Assembly (NCBI GenBank): GCA_020722965.1
Contig: DYJT01000006.1
Coordinates: forward strand, 4,265 to 67,910
Direction: 5' to 3'
DNA from: Brachyspira murdochii
GTDB taxonomy: Bacteria; Spirochaetota; JAAYUW01
Length of the DNA stretch: 63,646 nt
The notes below the pieces were generated by a model, which was not told where the DNA came from, made no database searches, and was given only the letters and a program-made list of their open reading frames with translations. This document shows, piece by piece, positions 57,703 to 62,826 of the stretch. Each line of letters begins with the position of its first letter. The first letter of the stretch is position 1. Made by a program: the position numbers and the translations under genes.

Positions 57703-57731
57703 TTGACACCCAAAATATTTTGGGCTATTCT
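57703..57731 (+). promoter_or_regulatory. imuB-dnaE2-lexA promoter with palindromic operator
   Basis: A perfect -35 TTGACA (57703-57708) and -10 TATTCT (57726-57731) are separated by 17 bp. Sixteen of those are a perfect palindrome CCCAAAATATTTTGGG (57709-57724), so a dimeric repressor bound there would block polymerase. It is the obvious candidate LexA/SOS box for this genome. Its 5-4-5 layout CCAAA-N4-TTTGG resembles the B. subtilis box in geometry but not in sequence. TTG start of imuB is 32 bp below the -10. Confidence 0.78.
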
Positions 57732-57762
57732 CTTTTTAAGCAAGATTTTTTAAGGAAAAACC

Positions 57763-59019
57763 TTGAAAGATAAAAAGATATCTCCTCTTTTTGTCAATAT
57801 ATATAATCCTTCCCTCACAATAAGCATTGCACAAAGAAGATATAATAGAAAAGATATCATACTCTATTATGAAAACAATAATGTCGATTATGTCTATTCA
57901 TGTTCAAAACCTTTAAGATATTATGGCATAAAACCTGGTCTATCGATAAATTTCGTTAGAAAAATAGTAGATAAATTTTTCCCTCTTGAAGCCAAACAGT
58001 TTACGAAGGAAAAGGATGAAATTAAAAAGATCATTAACGATAAAATGCAAGAGTTCTCCTTTTCAATAAACGAATTACCTTATTTTACAGTCAATCCAGG
58101 TAACTTCGATTCATATTCATTACTTGCAGATTTCACAGGTTGTCAGCTACTATATAAACCCATTTACAATTCTCTCGATCTAATCTTCAAATCTATCGCA
58201 AAAGAAATAGGAACACTTAATTTTTCTTTCTTCATTTCAGATTCTTTTTCCTTTTCAACCTTTTACCCTTCAGGTTTTATTTTTGAATTGGATAAAAATC
58301 TTTCGGCATATTTTTTTAATTCAAAGCAATTTACCGATTTTGTCAAACTCTCGACAATACTATCCCCCCTGACTTTTTTTGAGGAAAGTGGTTTTTTTTA
58401 CTTTTCTGATCTTGAAAAACTTCCATCTAACTTTCAAGATAAACTTTTGGATCTGTCTATCTACTCCTCACCACTTTCCTCTCGAATTAAACTTTCCAAT
58501 AGACTTAAGCCTCTTTTGGCCTATTATAAATCTTCAAAGAGTTTAAAAGCTCTTGATCTTTTTGTTTTTAAAATCACGCAAAGGCTTTTAAATAGAAATC
58601 AAAAAAATAAATATGAGATTCAAATTATCTTTACCTTACCTACAAATGACAAAAACAAGATCTTTTCTGAAATTAGAAGAAAATTATTTTTGGAATCCTA
58701 TTTTTTAAAAAATTACTGGCTAAATTCCAGATCACAAACAATTTTTACGGTAATCGAATACTCTAATCAATCGATAGACCGTTTTGGGTTACATTTTTCA
58801 GAGAAAGAACTACTGGAATTTTTCACATCGATAGCAACGCAGATAACATCTAAACTTAAAGGTAAATCTTCTGTCTGCCAGATAACAATAGAGCTTGATA
58901 AAAGTACATGCGAAGAACTTTTCGAAAGCAATATTTTTATTGAAAACAAGAAGTTGCTTTCATTATTCGATGAGCTTACAAGAAAATTTGGGGAAAGCAA
59001 AATTCATCTTGCGGGGTAA
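57763..59019 (+). CDS. imuB: ImuB-like catalytically dead Y-family polymerase homologue
   Basis: 418 aa, TTG start behind TAAGGAAA. Divergent Y-family DNA polymerase fold: palm/fingers 1-~230, thumb, and little-finger-type C-terminus ending in TRKFGESKIHLAG. Both metal-binding Asp positions are changed: the first motif reads FVNIYNPSL (Asn12 where Asp is expected) and the second SINELPYF (Asn104-Glu105 in place of Asp-Glu). Such loss is typical of ImuB, which links DnaE2 to the clamp. First in the cassette with dnaE2 (3 bp after) and lexA. No imuA is adjacent. Confidence 0.72.
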   Translation: MKDKKISPLFVNIYNPSLTISIAQRRYNRKDIILYYENNNVDYVYSCSKPLRYYGIKPGLSINFVRKIVDKFFPLEAKQFTKEKDEIKKIINDKMQEFSFSINELPYFTVNPGNFDSYSLLADFTGCQLLYKPIYNSLDLIFKSIAKEIGTLNFSFFISDSFSFSTFYPSGFIFELDKNLSAYFFNSKQFTDFVKLSTILSPLTFFEESGFFYFSDLEKLPSNFQDKLLDLSIYSSPLSSRIKLSNRLKPLLAYYKSSKSLKALDLFVFKITQRLLNRNQKNKYEIQIIFTLPTNDKNKIFSEIRRKLFLESYFLKNYWLNSRSQTIFTVIEYSNQSIDRFGLHFSEKELLEFFTSIATQITSKLKGKSSVCQITIELDKSTCEELFESNIFIENKKLLSLFDELTRKFGESKIHLAG

Positions 59020-59022
59020 TTT

Positions 59023-62000
59023 GTGCAACTATTTGTCCACACAAAATATTCATTTTTCGAAAGCGATATCGATTTAAACTACTATATTGAAGAACTTTCT
59101 ATTAATAAGGGGAAATATGCTGCCATAACAGATAAAAACAATGTTTATGGAATGTGGGAATTTATCCGAATTTCAAAGCAGAATAAGATTTTCCCCATTG
59201 TTGGTGTTCATATAGCACCAAAAATTAAAGATTCACTTTATAGCAATGGTGGCTTTTTATTGTTTTTAAAATCACAACAGGAAATTCACTCTTTTAATTC
59301 TATTATAAGTACGGCAACAAATGAAAAATCTTTTGACTATGTTTATGATAAGATTTCACAGCTTTCTGCACAAAATAGGTTAAACAAACTCGCATTCATC
59401 TCTCTTTCATTGAATTCTTATAAAACATTGATGCATCTTTCAATACCCATGGAAAATCTATATTTCGGTGTAATAGAAGATATCTTTACCATAAGACCCT
59501 ATCTAACGCCAAATCTGATAAACTTTTTTGAAAACTTTGATTTTCCAAATCCAATTTTTTTAACTAAGATATTCTACAAAAACCCCATCGAAGACGAATT
59601 TTTAAATCTTCTTGCCACATGCAAAAATAATCTTCTTATTAAAAGAAAAGAATCAATTTTCAAAAAAAGAAAACCTATAATTCAAAACTTCTCATCTATA
59701 TGTAAATTTTATTATCTTACAGAGGATAATTCATTTTTAAAAGACAAATCAAATCCATACAATATTCTTTCTAATAAAGCCAGAAAAACGATATTAAGTT
59801 GCATCGAAAATGCAAAGAATTTCCCATCGCTTTTTTCTGAAATAAAAAGTAAAAAACAGGTATTCCCATCATTTTACATAGACCCCGAGCTAAAACTTAA
59901 AAATATATGCTACTTAAAATTAAAGGAAAAAGGACTAAAAGATAATTTACTTTATCTTTCTAGATTAAATTATGAACTTGATATAATCAATAAAAAAGGA
60001 TTCTCTCAATACTTCCTTTTTGTATATGAAATAATATATTTTGCGAAAGAAAACAAGATCATCTTTCTGGGAAGAGGTTCTGCTGCTTCTTCTCTTGTAT
60101 CATTTTTATTAGGAATAACTGAAGTTGACCCAATAGCCTTAAAACTATATTTTGAAAGATTTTTAAATCCAGCCAGGGAATCTTACCCCGACATCGATCT
60201 TGATTTTTCATGGAAAGAAAGGGACAAAATACTATTATATTTATTAAAAAAATATCCCTCAAATTCCTGCATGGTTTCCACCAATATTTCAATGAACTTA
60301 AAAGGCGCATTCAGAAATTGCGCAAAATTTTATGGAATGGATTCAAGGTTGATTACTAAATATACAAAACTTATACCATCTTTTTTCTTTACCAAAAAAA
60401 CAGAAAAGATAAAAAATGTTTTGATTGAATTAGGTATCCCTGAAAAAATTGTAAAAAATACAGTAAAACTATTAAATTTGCCTTATGCAAAAGGGACTCA
60501 TCCAGGGGGGATTGTATTCTCAACCCCAGATATCTTAAGCTCAACTCCATTTTTATATGCCACTAAAGGTTTTGCTATTTCTCATTTTGACCGTAATTAT
60601 ATCGAAGATGCCGGTCTTATCAAAATAGATCTGCTTTCTCAAAGAGCATTGCAGGTATTGCAGGATGCGATTGAGAATATAAAAGAGTATAAAGATAAAA
60701 ACTTTGAATTAACCTTTGACATCGCAAATCAAGATAAAAAAACATGGGAAAAGATACGAATCGGTGATTGTAGAGGTTGTTTTTATATCGAATCTGCTGC
60801 CATGGTCAATTTTTTAAGAGATCTTGAAGTAAGCGACTTTGATCAGCTCGTTGCCGCTTCTTCAGTAATTAGACCAGGGGTTTCAGATTCAGGGATGAAA
60901 GAGATGTATATTTTCAGGAAGAAAAATCCAAATAATTTTGAATATGAAATTCCTATATTCAAAGAGATATTAAACGACACCTTTGGGATTATGATCTACC
61001 AGGAAGATGTCTTAAAAGTTGCCAGTATAATCGGAAATCTCTCACTTACCGATGCCGATATTTTAAGAAAGGCGATAAGTGGTAAAGACAGAAACCCAGC
61101 ACAGATAGCATTATTAAAAAAGAAATTTATAGAAGGAGGGCTTAATAATAAATATAATTTAAAAACCCTTGAAAAAATCTGGAAACAGATTGAATCATTC
61201 GCGGGTTATGCCTTTTGTAAAGCTCATTCAGCATCCTATGCTGTTTTATCCGTTAAATTAGCCTATCTTAGGACACACTTCACCCCCTTTTTTTATGCTG
61301 CGATTTTAAATAATTTCGGTGGTTTTTATCCTGCAATAGCATACAATATAATGGCTTTAAATGAAAATATCCCTGTCGATATCTGCAGAATAAAAAATGC
61401 GACAAAATTCACATTCTATGATAACAATAATATTATAATTGGACTATGTAATTTCTTTTTTTTAAACGAAAATGATAAGAATCTTCTTGTTAATATATCA
61501 AAATACTTAAGAACCGAAAAGGATTTTATCCTATCCCGATTCTTAGCTCTCCTTAAATTCGATAAACAAAAAACTATAAAACTGATTCAGATCGGGTTCT
61601 TTGACGATTGCTATAAATCTTCTTTTTTTACAAAAACCTTGTGTGAATATTTAATGCTTGAAAATGATTTTAAATTAGACAGGTTAATTGATCGAGAAAA
61701 AGAATTTACACAAATGATGCATCTATTTACTGAAAATAGGCTAAGCATATATTTTTATAGATATAAATATCTAGGTCTATTTGTCGATTCAACTCCTTTT
61801 CAAATTTTACAGATACTATCAGATGAAAATTTTTTAAAAAAGGTTGAAAAAAATAATTTAAAAAAATTCAGATTAGAATATAATTCAACTAAATTAGACG
61901 AAACAAACTTTGAAATTATTGGATGGATAATTACTTACAGAAGTGCCGTTACAAAAGAAGGGAAGTTAATGGGTTTTGCCACATTCTTTGATGGTAAGAA

Positions 62001-62214
62001 CTTTATTGAAACCGTACTTTTCCCCGATTCTTATTCAAGATATTACAATTTACTAAAATATTATAACTTTTTCATTTTAAAACTAAAATTTGAAAAAAAC
62101 AGCACTTCATCTTTTTTGGTAGAAGAACTTGAACCATTTCTTCCAGATTTTTTCGATAGATTAAAGGAGGTAAAAGTTGCAAGAGATAACAAAAAGGCAA
62201 AAACAGATTCTTGA
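59023..62214 (+). CDS. dnaE2: Error-prone DNA polymerase III alpha subunit (DnaE2 type)
   Basis: 1063 aa, GTG start. A degenerate PHP domain (~1-250, HTKYSFFES and ITDKNN, with lost metal ligands) is followed by the C-family polymerase: GRGSAASSL (~350), PDIDLDF with catalytic Asp390/Asp392, KIDLL with Asp536, IMIYQEDVL, and GYAFCKAHSASYA. OB-fold residues near 960-1060. Shorter than replicative DnaE (~1160), lacking the tau-binding end. Order after imuB and before lexA is that of SOS mutasome cassettes, so lesion bypass rather than replication. A stand-alone replicative copy could still be elsewhere. Confidence 0.88.
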   Translation: MQLFVHTKYSFFESDIDLNYYIEELSINKGKYAAITDKNNVYGMWEFIRISKQNKIFPIVGVHIAPKIKDSLYSNGGFLLFLKSQQEIHSFNSIISTATNEKSFDYVYDKISQLSAQNRLNKLAFISLSLNSYKTLMHLSIPMENLYFGVIEDIFTIRPYLTPNLINFFENFDFPNPIFLTKIFYKNPIEDEFLNLLATCKNNLLIKRKESIFKKRKPIIQNFSSICKFYYLTEDNSFLKDKSNPYNILSNKARKTILSCIENAKNFPSLFSEIKSKKQVFPSFYIDPELKLKNICYLKLKEKGLKDNLLYLSRLNYELDIINKKGFSQYFLFVYEIIYFAKENKIIFLGRGSAASSLVSFLLGITEVDPIALKLYFERFLNPARESYPDIDLDFSWKERDKILLYLLKKYPSNSCMVSTNISMNLKGAFRNCAKFYGMDSRLITKYTKLIPSFFFTKKTEKIKNVLIELGIPEKIVKNTVKLLNLPYAKGTHPGGIVFSTPDILSSTPFLYATKGFAISHFDRNYIEDAGLIKIDLLSQRALQVLQDAIENIKEYKDKNFELTFDIANQDKKTWEKIRIGDCRGCFYIESAAMVNFLRDLEVSDFDQLVAASSVIRPGVSDSGMKEMYIFRKKNPNNFEYEIPIFKEILNDTFGIMIYQEDVLKVASIIGNLSLTDADILRKAISGKDRNPAQIALLKKKFIEGGLNNKYNLKTLEKIWKQIESFAGYAFCKAHSASYAVLSVKLAYLRTHFTPFFYAAILNNFGGFYPAIAYNIMALNENIPVDICRIKNATKFTFYDNNNIIIGLCNFFFLNENDKNLLVNISKYLRTEKDFILSRFLALLKFDKQKTIKLIQIGFFDDCYKSSFFTKTLCEYLMLENDFKLDRLIDREKEFTQMMHLFTENRLSIYFYRYKYLGLFVDSTPFQILQILSDENFLKKVEKNNLKKFRLEYNSTKLDETNFEIIGWIITYRSAVTKEGKLMGFATFFDGKNFIETVLFPDSYSRYYNLLKYYNFFILKLKFEKNSTSSFLVEELEPFLPDFFDRLKEVKVARDNKKAKTDS

Positions 62215-62791
62215 CTATATTGCAAACTATATAGAGATAAACCAGTATCCACCGTCTTTAACGGAGATATCACAGGTCTTTTCGATTAACTTAAAAACAG
62301 CTCATGAATTTTTAGAAAGGCTTGCTAATAAAGGATATATAATCAAAGAAAAAAGAATTGCAAGATCGTTATTGCTTACAGATAAAGCAATTTCAGAGAT
62401 AAATCAGAGAAAAATACCGATCTATGGAACAACTGCTGCTGGGATGCCTATTGAAGCCATCGAAGACATAAAAGGTGAAATTGTAATTGATAAAAGAAGA
62501 TTTTCTGACGGAGAATATTTTGCCCTTGTGGTAAAAGGTGATTCTATGAAAGAAGCCGGCATTTTTGATGGAGATTATATCATAGTCAAAAAATCAGAAA
62601 TTGCGAAAGATGGGGATATAGTTGTAGCATTAATTGAGACAGATGTAACTCTTAAAAGGATATATTATGACTACAAAAAACATATGATAATACTTCACCC
62701 AGAAAATTCTGATTATTCTGATCTTATAATCTCACCTGATATTTTTAAATGCCTCGGAATTGTTGTAGGAGTTCAAAGATTTTTTGAATAG
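62177..62791 (+). CDS. lexA: SOS repressor LexA
   Basis: 204 aa with a TTG start 6 bp after AGGAGG, overlapping dnaE2 by 38 bp. An N-terminal winged helix (residues 1-65, ITKRQKQILDYIANYIE) binds DNA. The self-cleavage site is Ala88-Gly89 in TAAGMP, with catalytic Ser123 (GDSM) and Lys160 (TLKRI) of the S24 peptidase domain. RecA-filament-triggered cleavage derepresses SOS genes. Co-transcription with imuB-dnaE2 from one palindrome-bearing promoter implies autoregulation. Confidence 0.94.
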   Translation: MQEITKRQKQILDYIANYIEINQYPPSLTEISQVFSINLKTAHEFLERLANKGYIIKEKRIARSLLLTDKAISEINQRKIPIYGTTAAGMPIEAIEDIKGEIVIDKRRFSDGEYFALVVKGDSMKEAGIFDGDYIIVKKSEIAKDGDIVVALIETDVTLKRIYYDYKKHMIILHPENSDYSDLIISPDIFKCLGIVVGVQRFFE

Positions 62792-62802
62792 AGTATAAAA
62801 CA

Positions 62803-62826
62803 AGGGCTGCCTTTTGCAGCAGCCCT
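62803..62826 (-). terminator. Hairpin between convergent lexA and hup
   Basis: AGGGCTGC (62803-62810) pairs perfectly with GCAGCCCT (62819-62826) over an 8-base loop. Minus-strand reading is followed by TTGTTTTAT, so it best fits termination of hup; it may also slow lexA transcription. Confidence 0.78.

Follow-up and report, generated by a model that had tools for sequence, protein, structure and literature searches.

A polY-dnaE2-lexA operon of the ImuA-less kind, with lexA last and a candidate palindromic LexA operator, in an Exilispira-type spirochaete

The imuA-imuB-dnaE2 mutasome is found in Pseudomonas, Caulobacter and Mycobacterium, and lexA lies upstream of it in some species. PolY-DnaE2 operons that lack ImuA and often include lexA were described in 2019, and RecA was proposed to take the place of ImuA in them (Timinskas and Venclovas, PMC6511836). 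Among PolY-DnaE2 systems that lack both ImuA and ImuB-C, the Y-family protein is inactive in the Streptomyces coelicolor DinB2 type and active in the Bacteroidetes PolY2 type (PMC6511836). A lexA-imuY-imuB-C-dnaE2 operon has been tested in D. deserti, where UV mutagenesis needs ImuY, DnaE2 and RecA (PMC8072749). The presence of DnaE1 together with DnaE2 in Spirochaetes has been tabulated already (PMC3919608).

The window, by which we mean the whole stretch of 63,646 nucleotides that was analysed, comes from an Exilispira-type spirochaete and carries polY, dnaE2 and lexA as a tight operon, all on the + strand. The gap between polY and dnaE2 is 3 bp, and dnaE2 and lexA overlap by 38 bp. The features of the locus are as follows.

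57703-57708, + strand: −35 hexamer TTGACA of the operon promoter (promoter scan; same place in the related genomes G001 and G003)
57709-57724, no strand assigned: candidate LexA operator CCCAAAATATTTTGGG, a perfect 16-bp palindrome that fills the −35/−10 spacer
57726-57731, + strand: −10 hexamer TATTCT (TATAAT in G001, TATTAT in G003)
57763-59019, + strand: polY, 418 aa, TTG start; ImuB/ImuY-like Y-family protein, predicted to be catalytically inactive
58942-59016, + strand: RecA-N-terminus-like tail of PolY, residues 394-418, ENKKLLSLFDELTRKFGESKIHLAG (position matrix; docking predicted)
59023-62214, + strand: dnaE2, 1063 aa, GTG start; second, error-prone-type C-family DNA polymerase
62164-62171, + strand: strong Shine-Dalgarno sequence AAAGGAGG of lexA, inside the end of dnaE2 and just 5′ of lexA
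62177-62791, + strand: lexA, 204 aa, TTG start; TIGR00498 match with cleavage site and Ser/Lys
62803-62826, − strand: terminator hairpin separating lexA from the convergent HU gene (terminator scan, 9-pair stem)

The operon belongs to a kind that is already described, as a Y-family gene with a RecA-like motif adjoins a distinct dnaE2 and imuA was not found. In this it resembles the S. coelicolor and Bacteroidetes type, which likewise has neither ImuA nor ImuB-C, but whereas Bacteroidota PolYs mostly keep the catalytic acids in our alignment, the window PolY is without them and lexA lies at the 3′ end. Like the D. deserti operon, the locus puts lexA together with dnaE2 and a Y-family protein predicted to be inactive, with no imuA detected in operon or genome. 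The D. deserti operon, from another phylum, differs in that it starts with lexA and has a separate ImuB-C gene between imuY and dnaE2; in the window lexA comes last, and ImuB-C was not found. As in the imuA-imuB-dnaE2 mutasome, an inactive Y-family scaffold would act with DnaE2 under SOS control, here as predicted from sequence. Measured against that canonical mutasome, the inactive Y-family core is matched, but no ImuA and no ImuB-C domain were found, and lexA is last.

A sequence-only reading of this DNA had described three genes, overlapping or 3 bp apart, as one operon of a spirochaete-like genome, with lexA last and overlapping dnaE2. The coordinates, geometry and taxonomic assignment bear out each of these statements, and the start coordinate it gave, 57703, is the first base of the −35 hexamer. 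The genome is a 2.07-Mb draft in 41 contigs (95.9% complete), with a separate DnaE on contig C29, DinB on C15, one RecA on C28 and a single detected LexA. The same polY-dnaE2-lexA string was present in two relatives, G001 and G003, although in G001 it is split over two contigs and their joining is based on the two halves of dnaE2 and on flanking genes in common. We conclude that the gene order is not a chance arrangement.

The first gene product was called a Y-family-like ImuB in that reading. The PF00817 match of PolY was below threshold in Pfam (15.7 bits against a cut-off of 23.2), no NCBIfam model matched, and a PDB sequence search returned nothing useful. A profile of the window PolY and its congener, in contrast, aligned almost full length with one made from 21 PolYs that belong to DnaE2 operons in other taxa (92%, E 6e-7). 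Moreover, an HMM built only from PolYs of other spirochaete families, and thus independent of the window, detected the window PolY at E 0.0018 and the G003 PolY at E 3e-5; it matched 27 of 443 ORFs, all of them PolYs that adjoined a DnaE. A low-confidence AlphaFold model made from distant PolYs (pLDDT 56) had only Y-family polymerases among its listed PDB matches, but its input alignment contained Y-family proteins, so the fold match is partly circular and was not counted as proof; a single-sequence model was useless (pLDDT 34). We conclude that profile-profile comparison, the independent HMM and gene order support the first gene product as a very diverged Y-family protein.

The catalytic-acid motifs HLDLD and SIDEFY of Bacteroidota homologues align with FVNIY and DSYSLLADF in the window PolY, placing N and Y/S at the positions of the catalytic acids, as judged by eye in a region where the alignment is loose. 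PolY is thus very probably catalytically dead. The clamp motif is degenerate (CEELF), whereas most PolYs of other spirochaete families have a clear motif, such as QLALF or QESLF, before the tail.

The last 25 residues of PolY, ENKKLLSLFDELTRKFGESKIHLAG, resemble the N terminus of the genome's own RecA, IEAIKRQFGEGSIMKYG. In an ungapped position matrix built from 16 other PolYs, the tail scored 28.5 bits against a maximum of 8.7 among 145,415 control 25-mers, the congener tail scored 16.3 and the genome's own RecA N terminus scored 12.9; the G003 tail did not pass this test. In Pfam the 25 residues matched only positions 1-22 of DUF4113, and weakly (E 0.18), which is the region identified as the RecA-N-terminus-like motif (Timinskas and Venclovas, PMC6511836). 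PolY ends at the motif, and there is no room for a small gene between polY and dnaE2. ImuB-C was not found in PolY, operon or genome: PF20114, which we take to be ImuB-C, had no match in the genome, with Caulobacter among the positive controls that gave a signal. A Y-family relation was thus upheld, but ImuB is too specific a name: the protein is inactive by sequence and stops at its RecA-N-terminus-like tail, ImuB-C was not found, and PolY is thus closer to ImuY/PolY than to ImuB.

PolY could instead be a decaying relic, with DnaE2 working alone under LexA in the manner suggested by second DnaE loci without a PolY in some other spirochaetes. Between congeners, PolY is less conserved than the other two proteins, at 36% against 53% for the C-terminal half of DnaE2 and 66% for LexA, and no PolY was detected beside the related DnaE2s of genomes G036 and G005. 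A scaffold that has no active site is, however, expected to evolve fast (PMC6511836), the polY ORF is intact and still first in the operon in all three genomes, and the C-terminal tail is kept between congeners, both of which end in KIHLAG. We consider a relic unlikely.

Across the genome, PF00154 detected RecA and one marginal P-loop protein, of which only RecA was convincing, and in each of the four genomes of the class NF033429 matched nothing but RecA. The earlier statement that imuA is missing therefore holds for operon and genome as far as these models reach. Alternatively, the locus might be a canonical ImuA-ImuB-DnaE2 cassette with imuA elsewhere or missed in the draft. Split cassettes are known (PMC8072749), and the ImuA models discriminate weakly, in that the NF033429 controls matched but none passed the cut-off, so that a very diverged ImuA could be missed in a 41-contig draft of this completeness. 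Nevertheless, RecA was the only convincing match, and a PolY that lacks ImuB-C and ends at a RecA-like tail is what is expected of the ImuA-less type, which makes a canonical cassette improbable. Because PolY carries a RecA-N-terminus-like tail, RecA probably replaces ImuA in this operon.

DnaE2 matched PF07733 and PF17657 strongly in Pfam and also matched PHP. The polymerase aspartates are kept (PDIDLDF, KIDLL). As a separate DnaE, the replicative one, is encoded on contig C29, the operon DnaE is a second copy and not the sole polymerase of its kind. In a phylogenetic tree it grouped with DnaE2s, apart from the phylum's DnaE1s, among them the one encoded in its own genome, and its nearest relatives outside the window's order were other spirochaete and Bacteroidota-type DnaE2s. 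Second-copy status and tree position together uphold its earlier assignment as an error-prone-type DnaE2. In the PHP domain (window 59023-59150) the first His of the HxH motif is gone (FVH), and both are gone in G003; PHP nuclease activity is thus unlikely.

LexA matched TIGR00498 with 171 bits (cut-off 111). An alignment with five other LexAs indicated that the Ala-Gly cleavage site (AAG, in TTAAGMP), the Ser of GDSM and the Lys of TLKR are all present, as in an autocleavable LexA. The operon promoter has 10 of 12 consensus matches and a spacer of 17 bp, and CCCAAAATATTTTGGG is the only such palindrome with at least three GC per arm in the window. A palindrome occupies the same promoter position in the relatives, with TTGACA-CCCAATATATATTGGG-TATAAT in G001 and TTGACA-CCAAAATATTTTGGCC-TATTAT in G003, where the palindrome is CCAAAATATTTTGG. 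The exact site CCAAWATATWTTGG occurs once per genome in the window's genome, G001 and G003, always at the operon promoter. The 13 one-mismatch sites that were inspected, a part of the total, all lie inside coding ORFs, and the recA promoter is without the site. The second CCCAAN6TTGGG site of the genome was rejected as an operator, as it lies inside a coding stretch resembling aroC. The palindrome being the only exact site in each genome, LexA probably controls only this operon.

Exact CCAAWATATWTTGG is absent from G002. That genome has one DnaE, and LexA, PolY and the operator were all undetected in it, but it is 89% complete and these absences are weak evidence; they are consistent with loss of the system as a unit.

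It is also improbable that the palindrome is the operator of another regulator, or of the divergent DUF503 gene, with LexA binding elsewhere: in the window the site is about equally far from the DUF503 start and from polY, and its role as a LexA operator is that of a candidate, but in G003 the neighbouring gene is a different one while the palindrome is still in the polY promoter, and in all three genomes it sits in the −35/−10 spacer of an operon that encodes lexA, for which autoregulation is the rule.

The genes with their order and conservation, the missing catalytic acids of PolY, its tail, the candidate operator and the negative search for ImuA are read from the sequence. They are best explained by a self-contained SOS mutagenesis operon that belongs to the ImuA-less PolY-DnaE2 type and in which RecA serves for ImuA (probability roughly 0.7). 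From them we infer LexA binding, RecA docking, a scaffold function of PolY, complex formation and mutagenesis, in the following steps. LexA would bind the palindrome between the −35 and −10 elements and block the operon's only promoter. RecA filaments formed on damaged DNA would then cause LexA self-cleavage, and the operon would be transcribed. PolY, its catalytic acids lost, would be a scaffold whose body brings DnaE2 to stalled DNA and whose RecA-N-terminus-like tail at the C terminus docks on RecA, the substitute for ImuA, and DnaE2 would carry out error-prone synthesis. As lexA is last and overlapping, new repressor would be made with the mutasome and shut the operon once damage ends. Several points count against this explanation. 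With no ImuB-C found, the presumed DnaE2-binding part, the contact between PolY and DnaE2 is left without explanation; in addition, the clamp motif of PolY is degenerate, and the G003 tail did not pass the matrix test. A further-reaching version, in which LexA controls its own operon only, the mutasome is a dead scaffold plus DnaE2, and RecA is both damage sensor and ImuA-like structural partner of a one-operon SOS system, is more tentative and falls a little short of an even chance.

The earlier reading was not aware of this arrangement in spirochaetes, and in the literature on spirochaetes with dnaE2, imuB or lexA, as far as our coverage extended, we found no description of a lexA-last operon. 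Its novelty was nevertheless overstated, as the ImuA-less PolY-DnaE2 type itself has been known since 2019. What is new is the lexA-last order with a conserved palindromic candidate operator in three genomes of one order. Also new are a probable one-operon LexA regulon and a PolY, apparently inactive and lacking ImuB-C, whose divergence takes it beyond the reach of curated models. If RecA replaces ImuA, the system would be about the smallest mutasome that could be reconstituted, made up of a scaffold and a polymerase with RecA and just one operator, and would permit a direct test of the roles of ImuA and ImuB-C.

A DnaE relative was nearly universal among 393 Spirochaetota genomes. Gene neighbourhoods were read at 49 DnaE loci, a set drawn from the top matches to the window DnaE2 and thus not random. 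PolY lay directly upstream of DnaE in 28 of the 49. Among these 49 loci, lexA was downstream of dnaE2 only in the window's order (G000, G001 and G003) and upstream of polY-dnaE2 in three, L068, L071 and L079. The latter share with the window the same three genes, an apparently inactive PolY and a RecA-like tail at its end, but differ in having lexA first, direct-repeat operator candidates and a clear clamp motif, whereas the window has lexA last, a palindrome and the degenerate CEELF. The direct repeats in the promoters of L068, L071 and L079 (TTCGGTTAATATTCGGTTA; TTTCAGTAAACTTTCAGTA), set against the palindrome of the window's order, suggest a rewiring of LexA target sites within the phylum. 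Its ImuA-less cassettes, which have lexA first or last and operators of at least two types, form a natural series for the study of cassette rewiring.

The best DnaE2 matches outside the window's order, L064, L065 and L067 (G036, G026 and G005), had no PolY detected alongside, although the G026 contig ends just upstream of its DnaE. Genes of about 265 aa upstream of many spirochaete PolYs were considered as ImuA and rejected, as they encode DUF72 proteins (PF01904). Of the 28 loci with the PolY-DnaE2 pair, 17 have DUF72 as the gene immediately upstream of it (L069, L073-L076, L084, L085, L087, L090, L094-L096, L098, L101, L102, L104 and L106), and DUF72 may be an unrecognised partner of PolY-DnaE2 mutasomes. 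Finally, in Pedobacter a second Y-family protein is encoded two genes downstream of the pair's dnaE2 (L164:9377-10627), with its catalytic motifs kept and a UmuC-like tail at its end.
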